Shown: one piece after another, positions 6,001 to 62,165 of the stretch
Layout: each line of letters opens with the position of its first letter
Numbering within the stretch: the first letter of the stretch is position 1
Origin: Ptychodera flava
Taxonomy: Eukaryota > Hemichordata > Enteropneusta > Ptychoderidae
NCBI RefSeq assembly: GCF_041260155.1
Contig: NW_027248277.1
Coordinates: 4,004,501-4,068,500 of the forward strand
Length of the DNA stretch: 64,000 bases
Reading direction: 5' to 3'
Made by a program: the position numbers and the translations under genes
Notes under the pieces: model-generated
The model's input: the letters and a program-made list of their open reading frames with translations, nothing else
The model's database searches: none
What the model was told of the DNA's origin: nothing

Positions 6001-6640
6001 ATGAGGCTCATTACTCACTCAGGGATTGTTTGCCCAACACAGGAACGAGTGGACAGACTGTTAGCTGTTATCAACTCTATCCTGCCCCGTACATCTATCC
6101 CAGTCAAGCTCCTGCTGGAAGCTATCGGCATGATGGTCTCTATGCTGGCAATCATTCCCTGGGTGCGCTTCGCCTCCGACTGATTCAGCTGTATTTGTTG
6201 GCACTTTGGTGCCCCACTCGACAGCCAATTACATAAGTTATTCGTGTGAGACCAGCTCTCCGTGCCCACCTAGGGTGGTGGTTGGACACGGAGAACTTGC
6301 TGAAGGGTGTCCCCCTGCAGGTACCACCGCCCACTCAGTTTTTGTTCACGGACACCTCCACCACTGGTTTGGGAGCGCACCTGGACGAACTGACAGCATC
6401 GGGCAGTTGGTTGGACAACCAACAGGAGCGCCACATCAATTGGCTAGAACTCCAAGCGGTGTTCCTGCCGCTCAAGCGCTTTCAGCAGTCAGTAACCAAC
6501 CAGCATGTCCTGGTCAATACAGACAATGCTACAATGGTTGCCTAAATAAACAAGATGGGAGGGACCAGATCCCCAACACTGTGTTACCTGGCATGGGACT
6601 CATTCATGTGGTGCAAGGAACACAACATTGCCGACCCCCT
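3100..6640 (+). mobile_element. DIRS-like tyrosine-recombinase retroelement, fossil
   Basis: A proline/glutamine-rich, gag-like region lies at about 3.12-5.15 kb. A reverse transcriptase of the DIRS type lies at about 5.3-6.0 kb, recognised by VSIDLTDVHFHIAIH, SPFGPASAPRVF and a YLDD box. An RNase H follows at about 6.25-6.6 kb with LFTDTSTTGLGAHL and HINWLELQAV. The methyltransferase and the element's own recombinase were not seen, and I could not find terminal repeats. The copy is clearly dead, with on the order of ten reading-frame breaks, and looks old. It begins about 40 bp downstream of the donor at 3061, so it lies in the presumed host intron. Confidence 0.75.
4833..4870. repeat. Short ATGCTAC tandem repeat
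   Basis: Four to five head-to-tail copies of a 7-bp unit (atgctac) lie inside the gag-like part of the DIRS fossil. This looks like local slippage expansion. Confidence 0.8.
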
Positions 6641-7208
6641 GTGTGGAGATCGACATTATTTCTGAGGCCTTGCTTCAATGTAAAGCCAGATGACAAAGTA
6701 TGGTACTGTAATTCACCCCTGGGCGAAAATAAATTAGGCTCCATGATGAAAGATATCTCCAAAGCGGCAAATTTGTCGACAACCTACACAAATCACTGTG
6801 TCAGGGCAACTGCGTGCACTTTGCTAGATTCTGCTGGTTGAGACGAGGCACATCATGTACTTCACGGCCCATAAAAACGAAGCCAGTGTCAGATCATATA
6901 CAAACAAACTCACCTCTGATCAGAGCCATGGAATGTCTGGTATCCTATCTAAAAGCCTGGGTTACCAAACTGAACACAACGGGGTGGTAAGTGTTGAAAT
7001 ATATCGTAATTCTGCTGTCACTACAGTGGGCAGTGACGTGCACCGCCTCAAGCTCAAAACACCATCGTGCCCGTGGCATCTCGACAAACTCCTGCAGACT
7101 CTAGCATCGCCGCCATTTCAAATACCCACAACCAGAGTGCTGCATCGTTATATTCACAGTTGCACTTTTAGTGGTCCCGTAAATGTCAGTATTATACACA
7201 AAAATTGA
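6641..7208 (+). pseudogene. Crypton/DUF3504-type tyrosine recombinase C-terminal remnant
   Basis: Translated text matches the C-terminal part of the DUF3504 (Crypton-derived, ZMYM2/KIAA1958-like) recombinase fold. It shows WYCNSPLGENKLGSMMKDIS, then YTNHCVRAT (the H-x-x-R box), then about 20 residues on FTAHKNEASVRSYTNK with the catalytic-type tyrosine. The tail ends TFSGPVNVSIIHKN, a GPVN pattern common at the end of such proteins. An in-frame stop and a frame change lie near 6840-6860, so this copy cannot encode a whole protein. It starts where DIRS similarity stops, which suggests a junction between two elements rather than one protein. It could be a Crypton remnant or a broken host gene derived from one. 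Confidence 0.6.
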
Positions 7209-12156: not shown

Positions 12157-12338
12157 ATGACACCCGAGGCGATCGCTGCAGCGAACGCAGAAGTCGCTAC
12201 TGCCAGTAAGAAGCAAAAGTGGGGCAAATACCAGCACTATTCAGATGAAACCAGGGCAAAGATTGCGAAGTACGAGATCCACAATGGTGTCATGAACACT
12301 TTTTGAAAATTCAGTAAAGAACTTGACAACCCAATCAA
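12157..12338 (+). pseudogene. Pogo-like transposase, N-terminal part
   Basis: An ATG at 12157 opens MTPEAIAAANAEVATASKKQ and then WGKYQHYSDETRAKIAKYEI, a helix-turn-helix start typical of CENP-B/jerky-type transposases. One in-frame TGA falls in the next segment, followed by KFSKELDNPI. The frame is cut at the ATCAA target site, where the 16.3-kb element begins. It resumes at 28672 with INESTVRNMKKAY, so the insertion split one reading frame. Confidence 0.75.
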
Positions 12339-12372
12339 CAGTTCGTGTTCTCTCTTAATTTAGAGATGTATT
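12339..12372 (+). repeat. Left terminal inverted repeat of the 16.3-kb element
   Basis: 34 bp starting CAGTTCGTGTTCTCTC and ending atgtatt. It differs from the right end at one position (tagaGatg versus tagaTatg). It is preceded by the target duplication ATCAA. Confidence 0.9.
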
Positions 12373-12571
12373 ATTCGCAATCGCAGTATTGTTTGACCGT
12401 TGACCCTTTATTGCGCTTGCGTAGTAAGAGCCGGAAGTTGATCGTACCTGAATATCAGAGGTCAGAGCTAGCTACATACAATCCCGCGAAGTTTTCTGGC
12501 GGACTGTGTACATATACTCCCTTTCTGCTGATGCCGTTACAGAAAGCTTGCCGAATAGGTCCACAGTCATA
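12373..12571 (+). promoter_or_regulatory. Putative promoter/5' leader of the MADS-like gene
   Basis: About 200 bp separate the left terminal repeat from the ATG at 12572. A tgcgcttgcgta stretch at about 12412 resembles a weak NRF-1 site. At the matching position inside the right terminus a perfect tgcgcatgcgca lies at 28617-28628. No TATA box is evident. Promoter function is inferred from position only. Confidence 0.35.
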
Positions 12572-15500
12572 ATGGATCAGCCATCAACGGTAAATATACC
12601 TTTTTACAGTGATCCCGTGATAAATGAATGGAACCAACGTTTTATTTTAACTTTCCTGGGCTAGGAGCATCGAGCACAGTGCCAGTCAGTCCATTGTTCC
12701 TGTCTCTCATGTTTGCAAGCGCATTCATCAGTGCACGGCACTTGTATTTCTTTGGGTGTAAAACTCTGTCATATTTTTGTAACACGGACTGTGTGCCCCT
12801 CCCTGTCGAATATGTATGGCTTATGAATATGCTGATCGTCCACGGAGGTCCTTCAATGTTCCGCCATCGCCATGGTAAACGTTGATGATCCCATGGACGT
12901 ACCGCATTCGTACGTCCATGATGTTCCTAACTTGCCGTCTTTGTCGTAAGCTAAGCTTTCGCATTGACCATCGAGGGCCAATGTCTTCCGTAACTGACGT
13001 CAATTTAGGTTTCTAAAACTGTATATCATTTCCCTTCCCGTCAGTCTTTTGCTACACCACGGTCCCTCCACATTACACCAACGGCTCCAAAGAAAACTTG
13101 TCACAAAGAGGTTGGTAGCAACAAGACCTACGGAAGGAAGCCTATTGAAGAGCAATATTTGTCAGACGACACTAGGAGGATAAAATTTGCTCACAAGCAA
13201 AGGCAAGGGCTGCAACAAAAAGTAAGTTTAGTCAACACCGCATGTGGCCTCCATATTGCATGCTACTTTATTGTGTGGTACATGAAGACAGTGTTTTATT
13301 TAAAGGTCCCATTGTGATATATTATTATTATGATAATTTATGTAGAAAAAAACAATGTGCTGACCAAGTAATACGCACACGCTCCAGTGTGATTAAATGA
13401 ATTTAGATTGATTGCTTTCCGTTCACAGAAACAAAATTTTCTTAAAATATTTGAATTAAAAACATAGCCATGGTTTTTTCATAGCCTTTTGAAATATGTG
13501 TACTCTGAGGCTGTGTCATGTCACCTAACAGGTGAACCATATTGTATTTGGTAATAATTCGTACTCTTCCAACTTTCAGGTACGGAAATATCACATATGT
13601 ACACGACAGGATATCCTGTTGTATGTTAAAGGTAACAAAACATCCTTTGTGTATGGAATGACCCTTACGAAAATTAAAGCCTTGCGGCGAACAGTTCTGG
13701 TAAAGTCTTCATAATTGCCCGGTAAGTTTACCACAACATGTTGTGGTAAGCTTACGCATAGCTTGAGATTTTCGCATGTTGATGGATTTTGCGGCGCACA
13801 TATTGTGGTATGCTTACCACGACACTCAAGCATGTCCTGGTATGTTTGCCACAAAAGTTTAGGCTTTGCAGAATTTTTTTGCGGTATACTTGCCACAAAC
13901 AGGATTTACGGTATACATACCGCTATTGAAGCTGACCCTATGGGTAGCCCCACCCCCAGTAGCATACCCCTACCCTTCACACTTTGCCACGACCACTCAC
14001 ACTGTAGCTACTCATTCTTGTGCTAATGTATTAAAGTTTTCAGAATGTAGCCACAGGTACAAACACTCACACACATTCACAAACAAAAGAAATCTTACCA
14101 GGTTTTTCATTGAATTCCTACCTTACATTTATTGCAGATGGAAATGCTAACAAATGACTCAAAACAAAGAAATCACAAGTTCATCAACAGTTCTTTCACA
14201 GGATATCTCCCTTAATCAATGGCATCTTCATAACAAAGTGTTGGCATATCCAACGATATAGTGGGAACAGTTACTTTTGATCCAGTTGATTGTTCAGTGT
14301 CTTGGTTTACTTTCCGTAGACTACAGAAAGGGCTAAAACAAAAAAAAAGAAAAACAAGAAAAGAAACATTAATGCAATCACATATACTAGCACAGTACAG
14401 TAGACAAAATGCCAAGAGAACAATCTGCCAGTCAGTATGTAATTGCAACTGCCTTGACATACCTTTCACAATGAGTCTTGCACATATCATGAAATGGAAT
14501 CCAGGTCACTAAATTGTAAAGATATTTCAAACGGTACTTACACTTATATATTTGCCTTGGCAAGCTTGGTTACTCTTTTGGGACCAATGTGGGTTTATGA
14601 GATTGGTGATGTAAAGTTGTCATCAGCATTGCTTTTTCTCAGCATCCGTTGCCACAAAGACATGTCGTCACTTCCAGCTACAAATAAGAAAATGCAATGG
14701 AATAAAAGGAATGTAAAGGAAAAAGTCCCAGCGATTATGTTTGGTGATTTTGACTACATGTGACATGAAAACTAGTTTACTACTATATCTGTGAATCTAA
14801 ATTACTTTTAGATGGGGGGGGGACAACGCTACCAGTGATCCACAGCTACAGAAAGATAACTGAAAATATTGTATGCATGTTTTGTGTTGTAAGATTTCAT
14901 GTGGAACTTCAATGAAATATTGTAAATCAATCATTGATTTGGATTTCGCCTTACAATATGCTAGCAAAATATTTCGGGTAACGTTGAACAAATGTCAAAC
15001 TACATTAATGAAGATTTCAAAAGAAACTTAAGTGTCAAAGACAGAGACGTCCAGCATCGTCCAGCATGATCTTATAAATAGACGTATACCAAATTTCATG
15101 ACATGAAACACGTGTACAAACGATACTAGGTCAGAGTTTAAGAACTTAATTCTTACCTAACCATTCCTAAATGTATTGTTTTTTCATTGTTTTATATCGT
15201 ACATCGAGGAAAATTTGTATACATATAAGCAAAAGTTTCACCCTGGGTACAGTCCCCGAGGGACTGTGCCTTCGCCAAAGTGTCGAAGTATGTATTCCCC
15301 AGACATAGACACTATCAATACATCGGTATGAACAGATAAAGGCCACTCCTTTCACACTGTTCTGTTCACTCAACGTTCAACCTCGGGAGTTATTCAGACA
15401 ATTGGACAGTGTTACTCGAGAATTGCACAGAACAAAAACAGATAAAATTCGTCGTTACGTTGCAGAGAAGGATACTCGAAAATTTACTTACCGAAATTCA

Positions 15501-17745
15501 AACGATAGCCTTGATCCTCAGCTCGGCCAGCTCAGGGTGTTATCATGGTTATAAGAATGGTGACCATTGTTCACAAGCCGATCTCCACACGCCGATCGTG
15601 ACGACGATGACATGAAAATTAACGCGTCTTGAACATTGCCTATAGGTTGTACATTCATAGCTAGGGTATACGAAGCTGTCAAGGTGATGTCCAACGGCAA
15701 ATTTCAGTGAAATTATGTCAAAAGTCGAGTGAAAAAACAGCGACAATGCATTCAGCAATTCAAAAGGGTCGTAACTGCCTCTTCTGATATCAGATTTGCC
15801 GCTGAGATTTGACCTGTGACACGCCAATCTGACCAATCACAACGAAGTCTTCACATGATCTATGATGTCATCAGGCGTGATACTATGACTTCCGATACGA
15901 AGTCCTTGCAATCGCGATCGCTGTACACGTGCGTAACATAGCATGAATCGTAGTGGAAGTTTTGTTAGAAGTAATTCATTCAAAAGTAATTCACTGAAAA
16001 CCTACAGCTTTCGACGGACTATATCCAAGCAAAAGTGTATTGACAGTACCAGTGGCTATGACCCAACACTAAGCCCCACACTATGTAGGCCCTATTACAT
16101 AGCAGTTAGCACAGCAGTGCCAGTGGCGCCTCGGCTAACCGTGCAAACCCTTCATAGGCACTATACCAGCACTATTTTATAGTGTGCCTTCCCTGAGATA
16201 CGGAATTCAATTTCGATAAAACTGTGTTCTATACGACAGGCGTGAGATACAAAAAATCCAACATACCAGTTCAACAATTTCTTAGATTTTAGTTCGGGCG
16301 CGTTTCTCTGGAGACACGTACGTACGTGTCCACGGCAGGTTGAGTGAGATGTCAATCATTTGTACAGTGGATGGCAATACGACTAATAATTCCCTTGTCT
16401 TTCTAAGTCGGCGATATAGTAACTTATACCATACCTACCTCCATGCTTATACTGATCATATGATGGCTTCGGAAAATAATTGTCGAAAGACACAAATAGA
16501 ATGAGTGTTTTCTCCGACCGCGGTGACTGACATGCTCTGTCCGCTTATTATTAGGCCTACCAAACTGTGGCAAAGTTCCTTTCCTTCAAGGATTACGGCC
16601 GATTTTCGAGAGATTTTCGTTGCTGCCATGAAATTGATGAATTTAACGTTGAATTATCGTGCAGATCATGGGCTCAAAACGTTTCCCGATGGACAGGGAA
16701 ACATGGTTTCATTGGATATTTGTGGCTGCCTACAGTGTAGGCCTATGCATGAAACAACATTGTCACACAGAATACCCGTCTTTATTAGATCAACTTCGTC
16801 ACTTTTCTCGCCTCGATCACACCATAGGGCCTATAGCTGCTAAATCGCTCAAATTAAGCTATTTTGGCAATCCAGCGATCCCGCACCTTTACATATGTGC
16901 TATTGTTGATGTAATCTGGATTTGTAAAATCTTGTCACTGTGTATAGAAGTATCATTTGGAGAGTCAGGTACTTTTGTATGTGAATTTCCTAATTTCTTG
17001 GAAACTGATGTATTCACGTTTTAACATCCCCATTTGAAAAATCAATAAATATACTATTCTGTTATTAAATTTAGAGTGCAAACATGTATATTCTTTATTC
17101 ATGCATATGATATACGGTACATCTACAGAAGCCAGCTGGGCACACACGTTCACTTGGCTGCCCTGTAACCGTGCAGCCTTGAATTCTTACACATGATTCT
17201 GCAAGTCTGTGCTGTGTGACCATTGTATTTACGTAAAGCCTTCAATGGCAAACATACCACAAAGCAATCTGCAACTTTGTTTACTTCAGTCTTGTGGTAG
17301 ACATACCAAGAGAAAGATTGCTAATCACCACAAGTGCACCACTAGTGGTGACTATCGGCGCAGGATGGATAGAGAGTTGTGGCACACAAAAGTATGCGTG
17401 GTATGTTTACCCAGAGCTTGCAGCATATTTACCACAAAAAATCTGTTTCGTACGGGCAAGAAGGCCATTGATGACTACAAAAATGGGAATATTTTGAAAT
17501 CTGCAGGCACAATCAAGAGCATTGATGACAACTCCACTATTGTACAACCTTTAGAACCAACTCCTAACAAGGATACTACCGACGAGGCACCCCATGCGGA
17601 CATGTTTAAGCAAAGGTTTTGTCAAAAGACTTTGAAGGCAAATCTGATAAAGAGTAACTGGCCTGAAAATGACATGTTGGTTATCATGTTTATGGACATA
17701 CAGACTTCGTTTCATGTGCATCACAAGGTCAACGTGATAGGCTGA
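12572..17745 (+). CDS. MADS-box (SRF-type) protein, four exons, 195 aa
   Basis: Exons are 12572-12589, 13045-13221, 13580-13650 and 17424-17745. All junctions are GT-AG and phases match (0, 0, 2). The total is 588 nt including the stop. Residues about 36-93 align with the MADS fold. GRKPIEEQYLSDDTRRIKFA corresponds to the DNA-contacting helix (SRF GRVKIKMEFIDNKLRRYTTF), and GLQQKVRKYHICTRQDILLY followed by VKGNKTSF matches SRF GIMKK...TGTQVLLLVASETGH. The next exon continues V-IFTTKNLF, like SRF VYTFATRKL. The acidic, threonine-rich C-terminus (residues about 110-195) is unrecognised. The reading frame is intact. The gene lies inside the giant transposon and converges on the large minus-strand gene. 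It may be a DNA-binding regulator of the element or a captured host gene. The short first exon (MDQPST) is the least certain part. Confidence 0.65.
13726..13925. repeat. Cluster of GTGGTA...TACCAC palindromes, left side of intron 3
   Basis: Five related palindromic motifs occur in 200 bp. 13728-13749 is a perfect 22-bp palindrome centred on acaacatgttgt. Others are at about 13805-13820 (gtggtatgcttaccac), 13836-13857, 13881-13901 and 13909-13925. A second cluster lies at the far end of the same intron (17248-17440). They may be protein-binding sites or subterminal repeats of a guest element inside the intron. Confidence 0.7.
14215..14320 (-). CDS. Candidate terminal exon inside intron 3, minus strand
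   Basis: On the minus strand a tttctgtag acceptor is followed by an open frame, LRKVNQDTEQSTGSKVTVPT..., ending DAID and a stop. About 270 bp upstream, a second acceptor-like ttatttgtag precedes GSDDMSLWQRMLRKSNADDN and then a stop. Both could be exons of a small nested gene or chance ORFs. I recognise no family, and no start exon was found. Confidence 0.25.
15943..16182 (+). CDS. Small serine/arginine-rich ORF in intron 3, doubtful
   Basis: An ATG in a CpG-containing stretch opens MNRSGSFVRSNSFKSNSLKT and runs 79 codons. The first 45 residues look protein-like (repeated SNSFK, RRT-S), while the rest looks like random sequence. It lies midway between the two GTGGTA palindrome clusters. If a separate element occupies intron 3, this could be its first exon. 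I recognise no homologue. Confidence 0.2.
   Translation: MNRSGSFVRSNSFKSNSLKTYSFRRTISKQKCIDSTSGYDPTLSPTLCRPYYIAVSTAVPVAPRLTVQTLHRHYTSTIL
17248..17440. repeat. Cluster of GTGGTA/TACCAC motifs, right side of intron 3
   Basis: Motifs at about 17248-17265 (gcaaacataccacaaag), 17292-17310 (ttgtggtagacatacc), 17327-17353 (caccactagtggtg), 17376-17413 (gtggtatgtttaccc) and 17430-17440 match the left cluster at 13.73-13.93 kb. The cluster runs up to and past the acceptor of the last MADS exon at 17424. Confidence 0.65.
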
Positions 17746-18214
17746 TTTTCATGTTTTGTTTTTTTGTTTTATTGCAAATTGTTCCTAAAAATCTAGTTTG
17801 TAGGAAGTTTTTTTACAGACAACATTATAAGAGAGAGAAATATTTTTATTAAAATATATTTACTTCGAGAGTATTTATTTGAAGTTTCGAGAAAATGTTT
17901 CTAAAAATCTAGTTTGTAGGAAGTTTTTTGGTTCTTTTTTTGTTGTTTAAGCATTATGATATTTTGTGCACTGTGCAATAAAAGCATTTGTTCTCAGGTT
18001 CATATCAAAGACACAGCATGTCAGTATAGCAGTAGCATATCACTGATAGCTACTCGTCAGGACTGTCCATGCAGCTCCAGAAAGTACTACAAAACAAAAT
18101 GGCATCAACATCATAAGACAGAGAAATATTTATTTAAATTTATATTTACAGCGAGAGTATTTATTTGAAAAGTTTCTAACTATATTGTGATACATGTGTT
18201 GTGTTGTGAAATAC

Positions 18215-18257
18215 AATAAAGATATTTCAACATAGTAACTAGTTTGGTTTTTTTATT
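18215..18257. terminator. Facing polyadenylation signals of two convergent genes
   Basis: AATAAA on the plus strand at 18215-18220 lies 470 bp past the MADS-like stop codon. Its minus-strand counterpart (tttatt) at 18252-18257 lies 1.0 kb past the stop of the large minus-strand gene. The two units of the giant element therefore appear to meet tail to tail here. The region 18258-19292 would be the 3' UTR of the minus gene and shows no other coding sequence. Confidence 0.5.
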
Positions 18258-19292
18258 CAGATCGTCAGTCATGAAAAGCAATACATAAGTACTGGAATAA
18301 CACCACTGACTAAATTCAAGGTATCTCATCTCTTGTAGAAATATCCAAACTGCAGACCTTCAAGGCACATCACCAAATTGACATGTGTGACCCTACATCG
18401 TGGCATTTTGTTATCAGTGTATCACTTCAGCAATTCTGCTGTAGGCCATTAGACTTATTGTATTGATTTATTCCTAAAAAATCGTTACTTTTGGGACAGA
18501 CTATTTAGGGCTTTACGGAGAGAGGTATTGGTAGCCAGTGAGTGGAGTTGCCTTAGAATAGTATTGATGTGGTCTGATTTCTTACAATGGCCATACTGCA
18601 TGAAGGCAAATATGTCAGGGTATCAAAAATGTTTTCTACATCAGAGGAAAAAGCTTAAAGTATCTCATCGCCTGCCTCTTTCTACATAGGTGAAGGCCCC
18701 AGTAGATGCAGCTGTATAATTGGTTGAGATCAAAATAATTTTTGTTTTCCTTGGATACTTGAAAACTGGCCATATACATGTAAAAGAAAATAGAAATAAC
18801 AAAATGTACAACATCAAGACTGATGTATTCTAGTTCATGAAATCACATTCGATTCTTGGAAGATTGCAATATGCAGATGCATCGTGTCAAGCAGTGGCCA
18901 TTTAACCAGTGCATCACCTGTTAATTATTTACCAGGTTCAAACGTAAACACACAATCCAAATCGTAATAATGCTTTTATACATGCTTTTATACACATCCT
19001 TCGATCAAGTACAAAGACATGTTCTAATTTAAATGAATAAACTCCTTCAAATAATGCAAAAAGTCTCTTCTTTGGCTTTATCACACATTAACACAGAACA
19101 TACATGTAGGCATGTGCCTTTTTCACATAAGATTTGTGTCTATGTATCGCAACACAGCACGGGTGAAAGGCCAAAGGGAAACAATGGCTGCATTAATTTT
19201 TAGCCATTGTCCACAAACCTTTTGGAGTGTGCAAAACCCCATAATGTTATTACCATTGCTTGATATGGAAAATAGCCAAAAAGCCAAATAAC

Positions 19293-22200
19293 CTAGGCAT
19301 TACTAACTGCTGCTTCTAGTTTAGCAACTTGTTCAGCTGCCTCTACAACTAAATAGTCTTCAATTTCTCTGTAAAACTCTATTATTTGTTCCTTTCTACA
19401 TTTTCTCACCTTTTTCATTGTGTCAATAAAACCACCTTTGGAATCATCATCCATAACTTTCATAATCGATTCATCAATCATTTTAATGAGTTGACCTTTA
19501 GTTTTGTTTTCTATTGATTCACCCTTTTTCCTATCTTCAGGTGTAACATACACCTGTTCAAGTTCATGTCGAATGTCTGCTTTCTTCATTTTACCAAGGA
19601 TTATTTTATCCAGGACAGTTTCCATGTTTTTTTCACATGTTTGTGTCATGCATTTCAGTTTTTGATCTAGCTGCTTTCCATTAACACTCATATGGGCTCT
19701 TGTTGCATCACCTGGTGTTGCAAGATACCTGGAAAATAAAGCATGTTCTTAAGTATTAGAACTGCAAAATTTCATGCAAAATTGAATGCTTTTTGTGTGA
19801 CAAACCACTGGTCAATACTTGCTATGGAAATACATGTACTAGACACAAAAAAGTCTACATTTAAATCTTCATGCCTACACTCACCAATCACACTCAGGTT
19901 GTTTTGACTAATACACTGCAGCTGATACACATACAAGTGAAATAAACGTGTAAAAAATCTAAAAAATACAGCCATCTTATTTCTTTGCCTGTGCATGACA
20001 TTGTCCTTGCAGCAGTGTGTTTGACATATGATAGCCATATTACAATTACACTTGCATACAATTAGAGAGTCACCCTATAACAGAAGTTTTTTTGTTGGTC
20101 CTATCAGCTATGAAAAATCAGGACCTTTCCAGGAACATATAATGAAATATGCATAATATTATATTTAACTTGTATAACATATAACATACAAAGGAAGTCA
20201 TAAAGAAACATTTTAATAAAATTGATTCACTCAACTCCTGTTTACGTAGTTGTATCCGCCATTCAGTCACCTCTTCATCCTTCCGCAAGCGTGATGGGTT
20301 GGTTATTGACTCATAATTTGGTATATCCAGCATGTTTTCCATCTTCTTTCTCAACTGGTGGGATGAAAAATAAGCTTCTTGTCAGAATGTGTGAATAATA
20401 TCCCTGGTACCGTCAATCACACAGAACATTTGTCTGCATACTAGACTTTATCATGCCAGTATTTCAAAAATAAGTTAAAAGTCCAATACTGGGTAGCTCT
20501 TTTTTAAGCTATTTTTTCCACAGTTTTTGTTCTGTGTATTGATCTGCAATTTCTGGTTTGAATTCGCAAAGCATAATGAAATATCCAGTGTGTAGCTCAT
20601 CTACACACCCTATATGTCTACAGTCAGCAGTGTTAATAGCAGTCATTAAAAACATACAGGTTGTATTGACAAGCAAGATACTTGGTGTTTGAGCACATAA
20701 CAGGGACTTGGAAAAGATATTGATAAAGACAGCCAAAATTTACAACACATATTTCTTGTAAACTCTGTACACACACCTCAGTTAGCATATTCAAATTCCG
20801 GAATGTTCGCAACCATTCATCTGCATACATTGCACCTGCTGACCACCATTTTGAGGCTTTGTTAACTTCTTCCAGCCTGACGTTCAGATTTTCTCCACTG
20901 TACTGATCACCCGATGTGGATATACTTGCTGTAGCATCCATGAATGACCGCAATTCTTCAGGCATCATAGCTTGATCAGTCCTATGAAATTAAATTCAAT
21001 GGAGTATTCCCATTAGTAGCAAACAACAAGAATAGTGCTGGAGAAAAATGTGTGTCCAGTGGCTTTTAGCTTTTGACTCATTTGTTATTCAGTAAATATC
21101 CATTGGTCAGGGATGTTCTTAAAATGGATCATTTCTCTATTTTATAAAACAGCTTTCCACAACCAGACCTGCACAATGTCAATGTGCTGTGGATGTTAAT
21201 TATTATTAATGCGTTTGTCATTTGTGTGTGTGTGAGGCCTTAATTCATTTCATGTGTGCCAAAACAAAACTAGGGACATAGTTTTACTTGTTCTGTTACC
21301 ACTTTTGCAGTTAGGTTTCATGTCGAGGGGATTAACGCAACAGTGAATAAATTACACTGCTCCATACATCAGCGTTACCGGTTGTATAGTACCCAAGTCT
21401 AGCTATATATTTTGCTATGTGATATTTGGATGATTCACAGTTCATGTACAAAATGCAGAGCAGTGGGTATACATATTACAAGTTCACTGACTCTTACCTG
21501 TCATACAAGTCTAGAAGCTGGTATTTGGAATCTTTGGACTTGCTCCAAAATGGAGAAAATACCAGAGCAGCTGCTTTGATAATGTCTGAACGATTGAGTC
21601 TAACTCCAATTCGATAAGCAAGGATAGCACCACCATATCTGAATGTTTGTTCAAACATGTATGTGTAATTTGGGTCCTTTGCTTTGGTTGCAAAATCTAT
21701 GAAATCATTCACAGACAGTTCTTCTTTGGATGCCATTTTTACACGAACATATGGTATCAGTAATTCCCGCATGTTACCAGCAATGGCAACATTTAATAGC
21801 TGCCATGCTATGTGATGGTCTGATCCATTTTTTGCATACAACTGGGCCTTTTCTGATTGAAATCCCATTGCGTAGGCAAGGTCTGATAAGAACACTTCCC
21901 AATTCAGAGAAAAATAGTTTCTCAACATGTTCATTTCAATGTGCAGTTTTCCAGGGGAGAGTACAACCCAACCAAATTCTAGCAGTGGTTTTGGTAGTGG
22001 ACACCATGGATGCTCTCTTTGAACATGTATCTCATACTCCCGGCGGTGGCAGTCCCCGGGTTGGTGGGTACCCATGCTTGTTACCCAAGTTTGAAAAGTA
22101 CCCCCTTTCCCAGAATATTTCTGAGAAAAACACCCTCTATTTGTGGCAAATCTGGGAGAAATTAGCTGTAAAAAACATACCCTTATTTTCGAAATCTAGG

Positions 22201-25200
22201 AGGTTAGTATGTTGACTTCCAGGGTTGACCCTGGAGGTTGACTTTGTATACATGTACATACATCACAAATGTTTGTCCTCACCTGATTTTAGGTGATTTT
22301 AGATTTTAGATGGACCCTAAGTGATGGGCATGTATACGTCATATGTACATACAAACGTACGGTACTGTTTTTCATTTTCTTTGTGAGTGAGACTAGACCA
22401 GATTTAGTGTCCTAGGGAGACTATGAAAGGACTACCCCTAATCTCGGAGGTTACTCTGAAAAAGTACCCCTTTTTCTCGATTTCACGGACCTAGAATCTC
22501 CGAGATGACTGAAGAAAAACACCCCCTTTTCAGTGAATTTGGTAACGCGCATGGGTACCCACCAACCCGGGGACTGCCACCACCGGGCTCATACTCCTTT
22601 TCACTGTCTAAGGTCTCTGAGCATAATACACAGTGGTATGTATCAGTAATGATGCTACGAGCAATCATATATGGCAGTCCATCCATGGTAACCTTCATCC
22701 ACTTCCGTCTTTCAGTGAAATTTGGATCTGTTGAATCATGTGCTATGTTCCCAGCTTCACCAATGGTCTTCAAAACTTGTCTTACTGTCTTTTGAGAATT
22801 TGGGTTCACAAATATTGGTTCTGCACATGACACTTTTACCGGACCTTCTATATGCCCTGATTGGAGATGACTGTATATACCACCAGTTTCATTAGCTCTT
22901 TCAGTAACGTCAGCTTCAGCACCAGTTTCAGAAACCATTACCACAAATGATTTCATTTTACCATGATCTTCCCTTGTTGGACGAATAAGCATTGTACCCA
23001 AGTTCTGCTTACCTGAAAAATGACAAATGTCTCTCCAGTAACTGATTTCATTTTTCAGCTTAATGTGTTTGAAAAATACACCTTTTCTGTGTTGATGAGT
23101 CTGTTTTCAGCTGTCTCTGTGTGAGATAGATTTAAATCTAAAATGTTTACATCTGAGGCATACAGATTTTCCATATTTTCATTGCCATACAGCAGACAGT
23201 AGTGGATATAATACAAAACAAAAAAGACAAAGGCACAGACAGAAAAATTAACTAAATCATTACATACCACTCAGTTTTTCTGTGATATCTTTGAAATTTT
23301 CCCCGCATTGAGTGTTTGGGCATTTCCTAGCTGTTTTCTTCATCTCAGTGCTACATGCAGGGCATATCTTCACATCTTTCCTGTGTCTCATCTCTTCTAT
23401 CCTTTTATCAATGTCATCCACTATGACTCCACTTTCTTCATTACACTGTTGTCTCACCACCTCTTCTAATGCAATTTGTGTCTGTTTCTTCATCTGATGA
23501 CAAGAGGACGGAATGTATGTGCAATTGATTTGGTGTTAATGATAGTAATCTTGCTAATAATCATTGTTGACAGTAAAAGTTTAAATTGTATGCATTTATA
23601 CCATCCTGATAAACATTTGTTACATGTGGGCAAAAAGTTGTTCAACACGCTGAATTCATTTGGTATGCTACATAACCTTTAAATAACATAGCTTGAGGAC
23701 AATAGAGTACTGCCTATTCAGGAACAATTAATAATACTAGTAATAATACTACTTTTGAGACAAAATGAAATGTTTCAATCCTTTATATAATCAACCAGCT
23801 GACCCAGTACCATGGGAGAATTTCCTTCCCATTATTTACAGTCCTTATGTTTACCTTACCTCTTTCCTTACTACAGCAAATGCAGCTCTTAATCTTTCCT
23901 TGGCAAGTAGGGTTTTCATCAGATCTTCTTTGATCTCCTTGTTAATCAGGGCATTACTATGTTGCATCCAATTACTGCAAAATTTAAAAATTACAATGAA
24001 GTACAGAAAAAATGTTCTCCACAAAAGTTAAGTCTTACTTTACAAAATATGTATATAGTTGTTGTCAGGGGTAGGCATAAATAAGTGTGGGGAATGGAAA
24101 CCACACTGTTGACTCCTGAAAACCAGCAATGGATTGGAATATAATTGACAACTAGATCCTTCTCCCAACCCTGAAAAACAACAGTTGATAACTAAAATAG
24201 TGTCGTATGGCCATACAAAGGCGTTTTCAAAATGCTAACACCAAAAAACTAATGTGGGATCAAATTGTCAATGTACAGGATTTTTCCTTCCACCATTGCT
24301 CTCAATGGTCCACGGCATGCTTTCCATTCCCCATGTGCCTACCCCTGATTGTCCCTGTCAGTATCACATATTTTTCAGTGTACTAATGTCCAGGCAATAT
24401 CACCATTACAAAGTGCCAAAACCTACCTTGGTGCTAAATCCTGTTGTAGCTGCAGGCCTCTCAATCCAAATACTACATAGCAAACGCTGGTCAAGATGGA
24501 AACTCTGGGTTTTCCCCCTGCCTTCACTTCATATTGTTTTTGAACAATTTGGTCATTGTCAAAAGCGATTGCAAGGTCTCCAGCGCAGGGTAGTTTTATT
24601 GGCTGACTTGCCATTGAAGCAAGCCATCTTCGGAATGTTGTCCAGCTTCCACTTGGGCAGACCTTGCTTAAGACTGACACTAACATTGCACTTCCTGTAA
24701 TTCCATATAGCAGTAGGGTAGAGTTGACTTTTCAGATCCTCAGATTCAGATCCTCAGACCCTCAGATATCGATCTCAGACTTCAGATCCTATAACTTCAG
24801 ATGCAGATTCGAATTTACAAGCCTTTTATACCCGTATTAACAGTATGATTGCAATATCTAAAATAATATTTTGAATATGACATGTACGAGGCAGTTATGA
24901 AAACAAAAAAGTCTACATAAACGTTTTCGCTCAACAAGTTTCAACGAAGACGGGTCTGCTTCTTCCGACCCCTGAATTCTGATTTAGCCCGGGGTCACTG
25001 CCTCCAACATGGATTAATTATATTCCCTCGCCATAAATATTACGAACGATGGTAAAATACGGACTGTCGATAGCCAGCATTTACATGATCGTCGCGGTCT
25101 TGATCGTTCGATCGCGCACGGTGTGTTTCTCTGTGAGGGAACGTTCACGTGATGACATAACAAGTGGAACCATTGCACACCCTGTCTTCGACAGATGACG

Positions 25201-26158
25201 TTCTGATTCTGAGATCGAAGTTTTTAAGTTCAAGATTCAAGATAGAAATAAAATAATTTCTAAAGCCTTTTCAAATCTAAATTATATTTTATTTATCAGT
25301 ATATTACATCAAACTTTGAAAATTGTGAAATTTTAATTATGAATCTGCGTCTGAAGTTACAGGATCTGAGGTCTGAGATCTGAGGATCTGAATCTGAGGA
25401 TCTGAGGATCTGAATCTGAGGATCTGAAAAGTCAACTCTACCATAGCAGTAGTGATAACATAAAAGAGAATGGCGCTATTGATGCTTTCACCACAAGCCC
25501 ATACAGATGTTCTATAGCCATTACCTTAGCTGATGTGATTTTTTTTGACTGACTAAGACCATCAATTGCACTTTGAATTATGGGATTCCTTTTTCTGTAG
25601 TAAGTATCTGCATCAAATGCTGCACAATTAGACAAGTCCTTATATGTCTGATCGAAAGTCAAAAAGTCTTGGGCAATCGCCGAGGCCTCTGACTTGAACA
25701 CATCAAAGACAATTTTTTGTTTAATGTCAATGTCAAGACCACTTGTGTCACAGGTTTGTACATCAAGTACTGCAGTCATCGTTGTTTGTGTCTCTGCATC
25801 TTTCACGCTCACGTTACACTTCCTACACTGACAGAGATCACTGTCACTGTCAGCCAGTCTCTCAGATTTACAGTAAGAGTGATCAGGTGTTGGATGAAAG
25901 CAGAGATTACAGCTGCTACTATGGGAAAAGAAGATGGAAATAACATGATCTGTCCTACTCTGCTTAGACCGGTACTTGCTCGTTTCTTTTCGTGGTATGT
26001 TATGGTTCTCGTACATTTACCACACACGAGATATGGATGGACTTCTTCTTTGTCAGTATCAATATTTGTACACCAAATGTCATTGACCTCCTGTTTATAT
26101 TCTATAACATCTTTGGCTCTGCTAAATCTTTGATCTGAACACTGCACACTCTACACAT
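19293..26158 (-). CDS. Large zinc-finger protein with RAG1-N-like start; candidate transposase (about 1000 aa)
   Basis: Exons: 26158-25443 plus 24706-24427 (one exon split by a MITE), 23974-23860, 23493-23268, 23012-22588 plus 22030-21498 (again split), 20981-20777, 20354 to about 20231, and 19728 or 19711 to 19293. Phases match except at the last junction. The N-terminus has CRVC, then about 25 residues later NIDTDKEEVHPYLVCGKC, and then SSSCNLC. This is the order seen in the RAG1 N-terminal zinc region (CRIC...IDV...IHP..FC..C, then SCDIC). Further on are AIAFDNDQ (24549-24563), CPAC...CPNTQC, MDGLPYMIA, a C2H2 finger (C-x2-C-x12-H-x4-H) and GKLHIEMNMLR (near 21929-21946). The acidic residues in FDNDQ, MDGLP and HIEMN are candidate catalytic triad members (inference). 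The first exon needs two frame changes, near 26110 and 26010. With the two MITE interruptions, this copy is probably non-functional. It resembles uncharacterised multi-copy proteins of marine invertebrates and, at its N-terminus, N-RAG-TP of Aplysia (memory, unverified). Confidence 0.6.
22039..22587. mobile_element. 549-bp MITE with 8-bp target duplication (hAT-like) inside an exon
   Basis: 39-bp inverted ends (CCCGGTGGTGGCAGTCCC...) lie at 22039-22077 and 22549-22587 with one mismatch. The flanks are ctcatact at 22031-22038 and 22588-22595. Removing the element and one flank rejoins the C2H2 finger of the large minus-strand gene in frame (SEKEYE-IHVQREH). The 8-bp duplication fits hAT. No transposase is present. 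Confidence 0.85.
24717..25442. mobile_element. 726-bp MITE with 10-bp target duplication inside an exon
   Basis: The ends are GGTAGAGTTGACTTTTCAG and its reverse complement, followed by subterminal arrays of (g)gatctga units in inverted orientation (about 24735-24810 and 25340-25430). Exact 10-bp flanks atagcagtag lie at 24707-24716 and 25443-25452. Excision rejoins the host reading frame as SLLLYGITGSAML. A 10-bp duplication is unusual and falls within the 8-11 bp range of Mutator-like elements, but the family is not assigned. Confidence 0.85.
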
Positions 26159-26255
26159 TCCTGACAGGACTCTAATGTGGTATGAAATTTCGTCATCTAA
26201 TTCTGTAAATTTTAAAAAAGGAGCAACAAAAATTTGAATGAGAATTTTAGATCAC

Positions 26256-26261
26256 TTTATT
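26256..26261 (-). terminator. Polyadenylation signal of the HIRAN-like gene
   Basis: Minus-strand AATAAA about 365 bp past the stop codon at 26625. It lies only about 100 bp before the first coding ATG of the large zinc-finger gene, so the two minus-strand genes are tightly packed. Confidence 0.4.
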
Positions 26262-26624
26262 CATAAAATAAACAAAACACTTGAAATAAAGTACCAACAG
26301 TGCTTCAAACTTTGTGTAACTGTATACGGTCAAAACAGTAGTGAATGTCTTTTTAAATACATATCTTGAAAATAGATTAAAAAGTATGTAAGTTTTATAA
26401 TCATCTAAGCAGTCACAAACTTCACTTAGTTTTCATGCAGACTGAAGATGAAATATTTCATCTCTCAAACAATACATCAGTGACAAGAGTAAATGAAAAA
26501 GTCAAATCTTTTAAGTTGTTATAAACATTTAACATGGTAAAAATACAGAAAAATAAATATTTAAATACATAAAATATCTCTCTTTTTTCAAACAAGTGTC
26601 CAACAAACAAGTGTCCAACATATT

Positions 26625-28637
26625 TTACAATAGCTGGCCAGTACCTCCAATGGATAACAGACTTTCTTCAATAACTTTTCTGGTTTCCTCTTCCACCCCT
26701 GGCTTTACGTACACATGGTAAACACAGTCAAGCACAGCTCCTCTCCTGGACGGTCTCTTCCTGTCACAGACTTTTTGAATTTCTGGTGATGATGTGGATT
26801 TGAACTGAGGCCTACTTCACCGGTGTACTCACTTTTTGGGAAAGCAAAAAACAAGAACTAATTATAAATACTTGACCCTAACCTCAAAATATTTTTCTCT
26901 CAAGTACTCATTGGCACTCAACAATATCTGATACATTCAACATTGATTATAAAATCGGATAAAATCATAAATATTCATAATGGTTTTTCATGACGTAATT
27001 GGTTACAGATGTTGCGCTACCTAACCTAATGATCAAGGAATGAATACTGTTTTTGTTATAGACACATCACAAATTTGATGTATTTTCTTAATTGCATGCA
27101 TGTGTCATTTTCCAAGCCTGTCAGCAATAAGGAGGAACAACATCCATTGCACTATTAAAATCTTGGCTGACAGAGAAAGGGATGCCACTGATACAAAGTA
27201 TTTGTGTGCAAAAAAATGCCAGGAAGTTGCACAGTTACACGCCTATAATTTTATAATGTCATCAACATCAAAATAGAAATGCTTATTAAATATATTACCT
27301 TTTAATGTCGGTGATTTTTCCTTGTTCTTTCAACTGTCTGAAAGCTTTGCATAAATTGGCGGGGACACGGCCAACTTGTTTTCCACTGTTTGAGTGCACA
27401 GTCTGTTCTGGTCCACGCTGGTCACCTTTCCTGGTTATCTCATGGTGGAGATGTTCTGGTATTTTTTCAAGCTTGGGGAACCACACTCCCATTGCATAAG
27501 GATCATAACGATTCCCCTCTTCATCTTTGACCTCCAGCCACACTGACACATGGGGTCGTATGCGGAATGCATGATACCTGCACAATATTACATATATTAA
27601 TACATTACTGCATTGTAACACATTTATTTTTTTATAAAAATTAATATCTAACAAAAAGAAGATGGGAGCTAGGTGACATGTGACTCGCAAGTAAATAAAC
27701 AGTGGCTGTATTCAGAATACAGTGAATCGAAAGTTGCATGTACTTTGTAAAGGAAGAGAGAAAATTATCGCTCTAGTCATTCACAAACAACACTGTGCAT
27801 GGTTGAATCACTGGCACTGTCTCTCGAATCCACAGAGTGTACAAAAATTAATCATATCACCCTTGACTTAGCCTTGATGGCTATAATATAATACGACTTT
27901 AAATTAGCATCATCTTTATTTGCCCGCATCACTTAACATCGAAACCCATCTAAAATGCAATACGTACCCTCTGACAGTTGATACAATTCGTAATGGTATA
28001 CTGCCACTTGACGCAGCTGAAGGCTGTGATGAACCTGTGGAAAATTAAATGCAGTATTTTTTCACTATAAGAATTCCTTCGCGGGCTGTTCTGAAAGTCG
28101 CCATGCGTAGATCGTTAGTCTTGGTACATATAGTACGAAGCTAACGCATCGGAATTTCCCAAAACCAGAAGTAGGCCTTCATCATGGATCGAAATGTAAA
28201 AGTGTCCCCCAATGTCCGCCATGGCGCTACAGCGATAAAATCTCGTCTATGTGTCCACAAACTGTTCATCGACAATGTTGACCAATTTGGATGCAAAAAT
28301 CGGCCAAACGACGCTGTACGATGGATGGATTTGAATATAGCTGAACTAAATCATGATGTTCTGAAGGAACATCATGGCGGAAACCGTGAGAGGACCGCGG
28401 AAAGTAATGCATAAAATTTCCCACAATTTTGAACTTACCACCATCGTTGGAAGCCAAGACGTTGACTGAACGTCCTTGGTTCTTTTGCTGCCGATTTTGA
28501 CCCGAAGATGACAATCCATAGCCTTCTACGAGAGCCGAAGGCACCCGATGTGGGATGCGTAGCCTGAGAGAAATCCATGCTTCCGCGTTCACTGGGTCGC
28601 TTATGCAATATGAATGTGCGCATGCGCAGTGCTCCAA
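26625..28637 (-). CDS. HIRAN-like domain protein, four exons
   Basis: Exons are 28637-28439, 28034-27968, 27577-27299 and 26814-26625, with phases 1, 2 and 2 matching. The product would be about 240 aa: a serine/glutamine-rich N-terminus (SSSGQNRQQKNQGRS), then a domain reading WLEVKDEEGNRYDPYAMGVW ... GKQVGRVPANLCKAFRQLKE ... RRGAVLDCVYHVYVK. The DPYA, VGRVP and GAV-C-Y pattern resembles HIRAN-type DNA-binding modules (DPYAVAV...VGHVPR). The first exon begins right at the terminal inverted repeat. In the frame that splices correctly it has no ATG (28637 is TTG). An ATG at 28578 opens an adjacent frame (MDFSQATHPTSGAFGS), so a one-base shift or a non-standard start is likely. The acceptor at 26815 lacks a strong pyrimidine tract and was chosen to keep the frame. 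Confidence 0.55.
28617..28628. promoter_or_regulatory. Perfect NRF-1-type palindrome near the right terminus
   Basis: tgcgcatgcgca matches the NRF-1 consensus (YGCGCAYGCGCR) and lies 10 bp inside the right terminal repeat, at the 5' end of the HIRAN-like gene. A weaker similar stretch lies near the left terminus. A role as core promoter is inferred. Confidence 0.4.
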
Positions 28638-28671
28638 AATACATATCTAAATTAAGAGAGAACACGAACTG
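28638..28671 (-). repeat. Right terminal inverted repeat of the 16.3-kb element
   Basis: Reverse complement starts CAGTTCGTGTTCTCTC and matches the left end over 34 bp with one mismatch. It is followed by the target duplication ATCAA at 28672-28676. Confidence 0.9.
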
Positions 28672-31010
28672 ATCAACGAAAGTACCGTCCGCAACATGAA
28701 GAAAGCCTATCAGAAAGCCTTGAGAACCGATAAAGAAAACGTAAGCATTGACAAGTGACCATCTACCAAAGGGCAGCCGGTGATGTTAGGCAGCGAACTT
28801 GAAACGAAAGTACAGTCGTTCACCAGACAACTGCGACTGTGAAGGGCAGTGTGGTAAATTCAGCGATCTGCATCTCCATTGACCATGGTGTCATCTTACA
28901 CAGCAACTGAAGCCTCCTTGCTGAGTATGGTGGTCATGTCACGCTGACGTCAGACTGGGCGAAATCTTTACTTCGCCGTATGGGGTATGTTAAGAGAAAG
29001 GGCACTATAAAGCAGCGAAGCAGCACGTTGACGATTTTCCAGCCATGAAAGAGACATTTCTACAGCGAATAAAAGATGTAAAAGAAGAACACAACATTCC
29101 ACCGCAGCTTGTCATCAACTGGGATCAGACTGGTGTGGCCATCATTCCCACGGGGCAGTGGACTATATTGATTAAGAAGGTTCACGCCAAGTTGCAATCA
29201 CTGGGTTAGATGACAAGCGCCAAATCACGGCCGTCTTTTCATCATCAGCTGCTGGCGAATTTCTTCCACCACCACTACTTTACCAGGGCAAGACTGATAG
29301 ATGCTATCCGACCTACCAGTTTCCAGAGCAGTGGGACATTTTTCACACTGAATAGCACTGGTCAAATCACGATTCGATGGTGCGATACGTGGAGAAAATA
29401 GTCATCCCGTATTTCAATGCAACAAGAGAGAGACTCAGCCTACCACCAACCCAGAAAGCCCTCGCGATCTTCGATGTGTACAAGGCTCACTGCGCTGAAG
29501 ACTTCCTTAAGAAACTGGGCGACAACAACATTTCTGCCGTATTAGTGCCAGCGTGCTGAACAGATGGCCTTCAACCCATAGACCTTATTATTATTATTAT
29601 CATTATTATTATTATTATTATTAGACGTTATTTAAGCGAGATAAACTGTTGAGCCAAAGGCTATTCTCACACAGTGTCGAGATGCAAGAAGTATACAATA
29701 TGTACGTTAAAGAATATAAAAAACAGATCAGAGAAAAACAAAACATTAAGACAGCAAGAAACAGACGACAAATATAAAAACGCCAAAAATGGCTTAAGAA
29801 ATACATTTTGCCAAAACATGAGACTTACATTTCATTTTAAAAGAGTGAAGAGTAGAGCAAAATTTGACATCTGCTGGTAACTATTCCATATTTTGACACC
29901 GCTATACGTAAAACTCCTCTTAAAAATTTGAGTTCTGTGTCTTGGAATATATAATTCATTTCTGTCTACAGATCTTGTACTACGACTGTGGACGTTCTGG
30001 ACACTTCTAAAAACATTCAAATATTTAGGAGCCAAATTATTTTGGACTTTGTACATCAAGACTGATTCATTAAAAACAATCCTTTCTCTAAATGGTACCC
30101 AGTTTAAAACGTCGAATAAATTACGACTAGGAGTGCTAAACTCTGAGTCCAAAGTACTCTGGCTACAGCTTTCTGTAGTCTTTCAACACGAAGTAAAAGT
30201 TTGTTGGAACAATGACCCCATATGTTAGAACAATAGTCAAAATGGGGTAATATAAAACAATTGTAAAATATCATCTTAGCTCTCTGAGTTAAAAAGGGAC
30301 GAATACGTTTCAGATGCAGCAATTTAAAGGCTACCTTACTACAAACTGAATTTACTTGCTTTTCCCAATTTAGGGTGTCGTCAATGGTTACACCCAACAA
30401 TTTTTCATGGGTTACACAATCGAGCTGATCATTGCCACACATAACATTGATGTGATTTTTCGTTCTTGCTTTTTTCTGCGTTGTACCAATGACAATAACC
30501 TTAGTTTTCTGTGAATTAACACACATGCTATTTTTATCGCACCAGCGTGTGATCAGATTCATAATTCTGCTCAGCTTGGTTTCAATTTCGTTGATTTTGG
30601 GACTGATCACCTGAGCTGCTGTGTCATCAGCATACATATACATATCAGAATTTTCAGAAGCCAGAGGGAGGTCATTTATAAAAAGTAGGAACAACAGGGG
30701 CCCTAAAATATATCCCTGCGGTACACCTGTACTGACAGAAAGAGAATCACTCGGGGTTCCATTAAAGGACACCAACTGAGTTCTGTTTGCGAGGCATGAA
30801 GTGAAAAAGCCCATTGTCTGCTCTGAACAACCATCAAGTCTGAGTTTCTAACAAGCTCTTCAAAGATCTGATGCGGCAGGAGTTTCAGCAGTGGTACAGC
30901 AATCGTGTTTGTAGTGCTCTGACAGGCGGCAATGAAGACCCTACCACGACGATCAGCCTTCGACTCACTGAACTGAAGCTGCTTCATGCTTAAAGGCATG
31001 TTAATGCTGA
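28672..31010 (+). pseudogene. Pogo-like transposase, main part, decayed
   Basis: The frame resumes after the giant element with INESTVRNMKKAYQKALRTD. The DDE core is recognisable as NWDQTG (about 29117), the text around KRQITAVFSSSAAGEFLPPP, ALAIFDVYKAHC (about 29460) and TDGLQPID (about 29560). A LINE interrupts it at about 29.59-30.83 kb. The C-terminal part continues at about 30857 with NKLFKDLMRQEFQQWYSNRV. There are several stops and frame changes between blocks, so the protein cannot be made from this copy. All three acidic blocks are still visible (NWD, FDVYK, TDGLQPID). Confidence 0.75.
29587..30835 (-). mobile_element. CR1/L2-like LINE, 5'-truncated
   Basis: Minus-strand reverse transcriptase with GVPQGYILGPLLFLLFINDL (about 30.7 kb) and MYADDTA (about 30.63 kb), then the thumb region GVTIDDTLNWEKQV. 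The C-terminal tail RSTRSVDRNELYIPRHRTQI followed by KRSFTYSGVKIWN is typical of Rex/CR1/L2-type elements. One frame change lies near 30150. The 3' end is a (TTA)n microsatellite at 29587-29622 (ATT-type tail on the plus strand). Only about the last 1.25 kb is present, so it is a dead 5'-truncated copy inserted in the pogo-like transposase. Confidence 0.8.
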
Positions 31011-33194: not shown

Positions 33195-34250
33195 AAGGCC
33201 GACTCTATTGACACCCGGGTGTCAATAGCCATATACAGCTTCTCCTGGCTATTGACACCCGGGTGTCAATAGCCAACCGGCCCTCTATTTGGCTATTGAC
33301 ACCCCTCCCGTTTTTTTTGCCAGTCGGCCTCCAAATTCAACCAAACTTAGCTTAGTTATTCTAAACAACAAATGTTCTCAATAGAAATCCAAACAAAAAT
33401 TCTTCAAAAAAGCTTCTTTCGTCGTCATTTTGCGGTCCCATAGTGCTACTGCAGACGGCCTATACCAATGGGTGTCAATAGCCAATCGGCACTCTATTTG
33501 GCTATTGACACCCCTCCCGTTTTTTCGCCAGTCGACCTCCAAATTCAACCAAACTTAGCTTAGTTATTCTAAACAACATATATTCTCAATAGAAATCCAA
33601 AAAAATTTCTTCGAAAAAGCTTCTTTCGTCGTCATTTTGCGGTCCCATAGTGCTACTGCAGGCGGCCTATACCAATGGGTGTCAATAGCCAACCGGCCCT
33701 CTATTTGGCTATTGACACCCCTCCCGTTTTTTCGCCAGTCGGCCTCCAAATTCAACCAAACTTAGCTTAGTTATTCTAAACAACATATATTCTCAATAGA
33801 AATCCAAAAACATTCCTTCAAAAAAGCTTCTTTCGTCGTCATTTTGCGGTCCCATAGTGCTACTGCAGGCGGCCTATACCAATGGGTGTCAATAGCCAAC
33901 CGGCCCTCTATTTGGCTATTGACACCCCTCCCGTTTTTTCGCCAGTCGGCCTCCAAATTCAACCAAACTTAGCTTAGTTATTCTAAACAACATATATTCT
34001 CAATAGAAATCCAAAAAAATTTCTTCGAAAAAGCTTCTTTCATCGTCATTTTGCGGTCCCATAGTGCTACTGCAGGCGGCCTATACCAATGGGTGTCAAT
34101 AGCCAACCGGCACTCTATTTGGCTATTGACACCCCTCCTGTTTTCCCAGTCGGCCTCCAAATTCAACCAAACTTAGCTTAGTTATTCTAAACAACATATA
34201 TTCTCAATAGAAATCCAAAAAATTTCTTTGTAAAAGCTTCTTTCGTCGTC
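33195..34250. repeat. 207-bp satellite with embedded inverted repeats (about five units)
   Basis: Units recur every 207 bp, for example identical minus-strand ORFs ending 33755, 33962 and 34166. Each unit carries ggctattgacacccctcccg, a long conserved body (caaacttagcttagttattc) and gggtgtcaatagcc, so adjacent units can pair as hairpins. At the left end ggctattgacacccgggtg forms a compact palindrome, used twice at 33205-33275. The ORFs (MNLEADWRKNGRGVNSQIEG) are satellite by-products, not genes. Confidence 0.85.
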
Positions 34251-34254
34251 AACC

Positions 34255-61965: not shown

Positions 61966-62165
61966 AAAATGACAAATAACTAAGGGAATTTGCAAAAAAT
62001 AATACAAATTATACTGAAAGGAATTTATGTGAGTTTTCAAAAAATTCTTTGGCAGTGAAAACTTTATGTGAAGTAAATTATGTTTCTTTTTTACAGCAGA
62101 ACAAAAAGTAAGCTTTGCAACAATGTACATAATAATATTCACAAATTTGACCTTTGACCTTTCAG

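Follow-up and report, generated by a model that had tools for sequence, protein, structure and literature searches.

In a 64,000-nucleotide stretch of the genome of the hemichordate Ptychodera flava (contig NW_027248277.1, positions 4,004,501 to 4,068,500; hereafter, the window), there is one transposable element of 16,333 bp, which interrupts a reading frame that we take to be of the pogo type. The element is bounded by 34-bp terminal inverted repeats (TIRs) and by a 5-bp target site duplication (TSD), ATCAA (Table 1). Once reverse-complemented, the right TIR agrees with the left one at 33 of 34 positions. Because the bases immediately outside the two TIRs do not pair, CAG can be assigned as the tip of the element; the tips are thus CAG...CTG, of the CA..TG type. 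No third site in the window resembles the TIRs with at most 12 mismatches over the 34 positions.

When the element and one copy of ATCAA are removed, the flanks read through in a single frame, KFSKELDNPIN being followed across the junction by ESTVRNMKKAYQKALRTD. The rejoined frame stays open for 11 codons leftward before reaching a TGA, and more breaks are found in the right flank; the pogo relative that served as the target is itself decayed. Together, the TIRs, the TSD and the rejoined target frame support a discrete TIR transposon inserted into an older transposon, as predicted from the letters alone in a preliminary description of this DNA, which gave the same length, the same single mismatch and the same duplication on both sides. 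That description also saw the repair of a pogo frame. The rejoining in one frame stands, whereas the pogo identity finds little backing in Pfam, where one right-flank piece matches DDE_1 with an E value of 0.047, and no family is retrieved with the junction peptide, with another flank piece or with a 117-amino-acid (aa) peptide comprising the left flank plus the junction. A match of one right-flank piece to UvrC_RNaseH_dom (E 0.005) is taken as chance. The 16.3 kb include at least two later insertions, of 727 and 549 bp, each with its own duplicated bases (9 and 8 bp, respectively), without which the element measures about 15.0 kb.

Table 1. Coordinates of the element's parts in the window
Feature	Positions	Strand	Remark
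TSD ATCAA, left copy	12334..12338		
Left TIR, tip CAG	12339..12372	+	
Palindrome cluster 1	13721..13921		GGTA-N4-TACC-like sites at 13721, 13745, 13807, 13839, 13883, 13910
Palindrome cluster 2	17247..17433		sites at 17247, 17296, 17400, 17422
Last exon with stop	19293..19728	-	join to exon 9 out of phase
Exon 9	20271..20354	-	3' border uncertain
Exon 8	20777..20981	-	
Exon 7, second segment	21498..22030	-	IHVQREH and LHIEMN
Nested MITE-like insertion 2	22039..22587		8-bp TSD AGTATGAG
Exon 7, first segment	22588..23012	-	MDGLPY and CVLC
Exon 6	23268..23493	-	Cys-rich (CPAC...CPNTQC)
Exon 5	23860..23974	-	
Exon 4, second segment	24427..24706	-	first proposed catalytic D (FDND)
Nested MITE-like insertion 1	24716..25442		9-bp TSD TACTGCTAT
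Exon 4, first segment	25443..26202	-	RAG1-N/Chapa-like zinc module, two frame breaks
Exon 3	26645..26811	-	end of HIRAN-like part; weak donor; alternative reading to a stop at 26625
Exon 2	27299..27577	-	HIRAN-like part; HIRAN E 0.019 on the open reading frame, below cut-off
Exon 1 (proposed)	28439..28578	-	ATG; GT donor, phase fits exon 2
Right TIR	28638..28671	-	1 mismatch versus left copy
TSD ATCAA, right copy	28672..28676		

A minus-strand gene and its decay

The right half of the element can be read as one coding unit of about 10 exons on the minus strand. The proposed exons, bordered by GT and AG, extend from an ATG at 28578 down to 19293 in 12 segments, which outnumber the exons because nested insertions split two of them. 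The reading phase agrees at eight of nine splice joins (1-2 to 8-9), and the last join fails. The joins were picked by eye, and the 3-4 join, the donor of which is weak, was made partly by hand from open reading frames (ORFs); the agreement in phase is therefore support for a single gene, not proof. A codon-usage scan trained on the exons of the gene, and thereby biased toward the gene's own usage, yielded eight segments above threshold; all of them lie inside the gene, whereas the left 7 kb of the element contains no such segment. The reversed left half, used as a control, gave one segment, at 12.3.

An AATAAA lies between the alternative stop of exon 3 and exon 4, so that a separate HIRAN gene could also exist. 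Our guess leans toward fusion of the HIRAN-like exons to the downstream gene. The window contains a single copy of TGCGCATGCGCA, a sequence equal to the NRF1 consensus. It is located at 28617-28628, 43 bp in from the right end and 39 bp ahead of the proposed ATG, and the minus-strand gene may use it as its promoter.

This copy of the element is dead, with two frame breaks and two insertions resembling miniature inverted-repeat transposable elements (MITEs) in its coding exons. Specifically, exon 4 shifts frame twice, through either decay or assembly errors. The two MITE-like insertions differ from each other, both carry long inverted repeats, and neither has a second copy in the window. The in-frame reading continues past each of them. 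One of the two separates CVLC from IHVQREH, and the frame resumes afterwards, which we count in favour of a transposase reading of the gene.

The predicted protein

From its N-terminus, the predicted protein would comprise a HIRAN-like part, a RAG1-N/Chapa-like zinc module and a transposase-like core. In the zinc module, CRVC, VHPYLVCGKC and PHSSSCNLC line up, one after another, with all three Cys motifs of RAG1 (CRIC, IHPTEFCHNC and PHTPSCDIC), and the alignment score is reached by 1 of 2000 shuffles with BLOSUM45 and by 11 of 2000 with BLOSUM62. The corresponding Pfam profile, PF12560, matches a 120-aa peptide with an E value of 0.0015 (18.6 of 23.3 bits) and a longer peptide with an E value of 0.0068, both below the cut-off; a PDB search with the 120-aa peptide did not retrieve RAG1. 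The resemblance to RAG1-N, suggested in the preliminary description, is moderately supported; the profile stays below the cut-off, and the module fits into the one phase-consistent gene. The HIRAN-like part in front of the core is probably genuine but weakly supported. EEGNRYDPYAMGV and GKQVGRVP can be fitted by eye to the domain of HLTF, the score of the HLTF comparison is reached by 79 (BLOSUM45) and 212 (BLOSUM62) of 2000 shuffles, and the HIRAN-like peptide has no match in the PDB. HIRAN-like exons do exist; their profile score is at noise level, and they fit into the one gene.

The core contains IAFDNDQI, MDGLPY, CVLC, IHVQREH and LHIEMN in this order, with only 12 residues between the C2C and the H4H pairs. 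The order D-C2C-H4H-LHIE.N arises in none of 20000 shuffles and its first three parts in 15 of 20000, in a test that was chosen after the fact and with catalytic residues proposed from sequence only. LHIEMN has a counterpart in RAG1, LHCDIGN, and another in EnSpm, MHIEKN. An hhalign comparison with RAG1 is matched by none of 60 decoys, but the alignment spans 9 columns only.

Several results weigh against this assignment of modules. For the core, a comparison with the RAG1 core is not significant (79 of 300 shuffles reach the score), an hhalign comparison with a tnp2 fragment is equalled by 13 of 60 decoys, and Pfam scans of core peptides retrieve no transposase family, neither Transposase_21 nor a RAG1-core family. 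Profiles of ordinary C2H2 fingers also match the C2C-H4H region (zf-C2H2_12, E 0.015; zf-C2H2_4, E 0.074). The LHIEMN region matches DUF6589 (PF20231, function unknown), a family that had been thought of before the profile search, with E values of 0.017-0.025 on single pieces, which is noise level, and the match is absent from the longer joined core and from a 101-aa piece. As a gauge of noise, 3 of 20 arbitrary ORFs reached Pfam E values of 0.027-0.055, so that values near 0.02 are about noise level here. The HIRAN profile, with E values of 0.019, 0.15 and 0.076 on different peptides, all below the cut-off, is likewise at noise level. For the zinc module, the 120-aa peptide contains two frame joins, and PF12560 does not match the unjoined ORFs; the best unjoined ORF ranks sixth of 1586 window ORFs by phmmer (E 3.5) and is absent from the BLASTP list.

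PDB searches with peptides of the element gave no relevant match. Close relatives were sought by pattern in viral contigs (three patterns and, in addition, one TIR pattern) and in prokaryote genomes; the searches returned 2, 3, 15, 0 and 5 stretches, none of which was confirmed. A match to a Staphylococcus jumbo phage (E 2e-3 to 5e-3, three records) is taken as chance; in the one phage protein examined, the matching stretch has none of the Cys/His motifs, and that protein has no relevant family; DUF6589 is absent from the phage record.

The left 7 kb and the surrounding window

The left 7 kb of the element is marked by gapped palindromes. All nine matches to GG[TC]A-N4-T[AG]CC in the window fall within it, compared with a mean of 0.28 and a maximum of 3 in 300 simulations of this stretch; when exact 4-4-4 gapped palindromes are counted in the same stretch, GGTA occurs six times and the runner-up twice. 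A matrix built from the nine sites added those at 13745 and 17422. Ten sites score 15.6-28.5, above the reversed-window maximum of 12.4, while the remaining site, 12589, scores 12.7 and is no better than the control. The ten palindromes fall into two clusters, each about 200 bp long, with flanks that often extend to TTGT or ACAA, and may be binding sites for a dimeric protein encoded by the element. For a possible nested TIR element around the clusters, the best candidate ends are no better than those of four control regions.

Pfam scans of 25 left-half ORFs, which do not cover every shorter ORF, detected no MADS, kelch, polymerase or integrase domain. Among the ORFs scanned, the MADS-like gene proposed earlier is not recovered, and the proposed absence of Polinton/Maverick genes (DNA polymerase B, integrase and capsid) holds. 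Likewise, no convergent RAG2-like kelch gene was found among single ORFs, a scan that a finely spliced gene could escape. The longest open frame of the left half, 182 aa at 17197-17745 (+), is equalled in length in 8 of 400 simulated sequences and matches no relevant family.

Outside the element, the window contains reverse transcriptase pieces at 30107-30847 (-) and 36412-36891 (-) (RVT_1, E 1.2e-12 and 8e-13, respectively) and a further match below the cut-off at 51086-51577 (-) (RVT_1, E 0.009). A tandem array at 33261-34251 consists of 4.8 copies of 207 bp with 96% matches. NHL repeats at 62075-63000 (+), above the cut-off (E 3.4e-7 and 4.6e-8), are probably part of a host gene, and 6134-6838 (+), which matches DUF3504 below the cut-off (E 1.4e-4), may be a fragment of a tyrosine-recombinase element. 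The window has no Rfam match at gathering score and no tRNA.

Placement among known transposons

The CACTA-Mirage-Chapaev-Transib/RAG1 (CMCT) clade comprises EnSpm/CACTA, Mirage, Chapaev, Transib, Plavaka, ESTA and Lanisha, and is characterised by CA..TG tips in most lineages, TSDs of 2-5 bp, and C(2)C/H(3-4)H motifs between the second D and the last E (PMC12730594). The element shares the tips, has a TSD within this range and, in its predicted core, shows C(2)C and H(3-4)H pairs that follow a proposed catalytic D and precede an [LM]H.[ED].N stretch. It differs in that its core has no significant match to a known core, in the 12-residue gap between C2C and H4H, and in the HIRAN-like part, which the excerpted description does not mention (PMC12730594). 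On balance, we favour the view that the element is a decayed large cut-and-paste transposon that would have encoded a DDE-type transposase of the CMCT kind with a RAG1-N/Chapa-like module and, probably, a HIRAN-like domain. As homology of the core is not established by sequence, the element is best said to work like a CMCT transposon, not to be a proven member of a named superfamily; it probably represents a CMCT-type lineage that has yet to be placed, a variation on a kind already described.

Other explanations were weighed against this view. The element could be a copy of an already catalogued family that works alike, for example, a host Chapaev- or EnSpm-type family in Repbase, a possibility that we regard as doubtful. 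Chapaev, Chapaev3, TransibSU and RAG1 are all described as having Chapa domains (PMC4411706, in excerpt), and the ends and TSD fit CMCT; against a catalogued family, the same excerpt mentions no HIRAN part, and the combination of HIRAN, RAG1-N and a transposase core appears in no title or abstract opening of the open-access literature among the matches listed, which says little. DUF6589, for its part, yielded no paper in the open-access literature. Somewhat unlikely, in our estimate, is another undescribed group of DDE or non-DDE transposase-like proteins, in which the CMCT-like order would be a coincidence of a C2H2 finger and nearby residues. The finger matches, the lack of a significant match to a known core and the post hoc motif test all suit such a group, but it would leave the joint occurrence of five motifs in the right order, CA..TG tips, a 5-bp TSD and a RAG1-N-like module to chance.

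The preliminary description had instead suggested a giant transposon of a new kind, bearing three spliced genes (MADS-like, HIRAN-like and RAG1-N-like) and no hallmark gene. HIRAN-like and RAG1-N-like exons do exist, and the alternative end of exon 3 allows a separate HIRAN gene. However, these exons can be joined, in consistent phase, into a single gene that includes a transposase-like core, the ORFs scanned contain no MADS domain, and no above-threshold coding segment lies outside that gene, which itself carries the D, C2C, H4H and LHIE.N order. Since this gene and the ends fit the excerpted CMCT description (PMC12730594), a new kind is not shown, and we consider it very improbable. We give about as little credence, if anything slightly less, to a non-autonomous TIR element that captured a host gene (a HIRAN/RAG1-N/zinc protein) and relied on an unrelated transposase for its movement. 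A stretch of about 7 kb in which no gene can be recognised and the unproven homology of the core would accommodate a captured gene, but transposases and RAG1 are described as carrying RAG1-N/Chapa domains (PMC4411706, in excerpt), and the motif order of the core also speaks against capture.

If the CMCT-like reading holds, the transposase would pair the 34-bp ends, cut at the CAG/CTG tips and join these to target DNA opened by a staggered cut of 5 bp. The HIRAN domain of HLTF binds free 3' DNA ends, and the HIRAN-like part, if real, would hold such ends during the reaction. The GGTA-N4-TACC clusters, for which the TnpA sites of Spm provide a comparison, would serve as binding sites for a dimer encoded by the element, acting either in synapsis or in repression of the element itself. 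Transcripts would begin next to the right TIR. The present copy cannot make the protein and would depend on an intact copy elsewhere.

A bolder reading, possible but in our view less likely than not, is that of a separate animal lineage whose transposase combines a compact CMCT core with a HIRAN domain that binds 3' ends and with the zinc module of the RAG1 N-terminus, the palindrome arrays inside the element being sites for its own dimer. Were this the case, the RAG1 front end would have circulated on transposons outside Transib/RAGL and Chapaev; how the N-terminal region of RAG1 arose is still debated in accounts of the evolution of antibody gene rearrangement (PMC4411706, PMC8355894). The RAG1-N-like module, the 5-bp TSD, the near-perfect ends and tips other than those of RAGL/Transib define an element to seek in animal genomes, and, should a transposase be confirmed to carry a domain that binds 3' ends, this domain would be a new part open to testing.

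Among known systems, RAGL/Transib and RAG1 resemble the element in the 5-bp TSD and in the C1-C3 order of RAG1-N-like Cys motifs (PMC7204232 and PMC4411706, in excerpt). RAGL/Transib TIRs begin with CAC (PMC7204232, in excerpt), whereas the tip of the element is CAG, no kelch/RAG2L gene is present in the single ORFs scanned, and the core is not demonstrably homologous. The CAG tips and the lack of a detected kelch gene argue against placement in RAGL/Transib. DUF6589 proteins are similar in the weak profile match over the LHIEMN region and dissimilar in that the match is at noise level and is lost in the longer peptide. Chapaev has a TSD of 4 bp, in contrast to the 5 bp of the element. In Chapaev, compared by description only, a Chapa/RAG1-N-like zinc module likewise stands ahead of a transposase-like core (PMC4411706, in excerpt). 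N-RAG-TP of Aplysia, described in the excerpt as a transposon made entirely of RAG1-N-like sequence (PMC8355894), also carries RAG1-N-like sequence on a transposon, whereas in the element from P. flava the module heads a longer protein.

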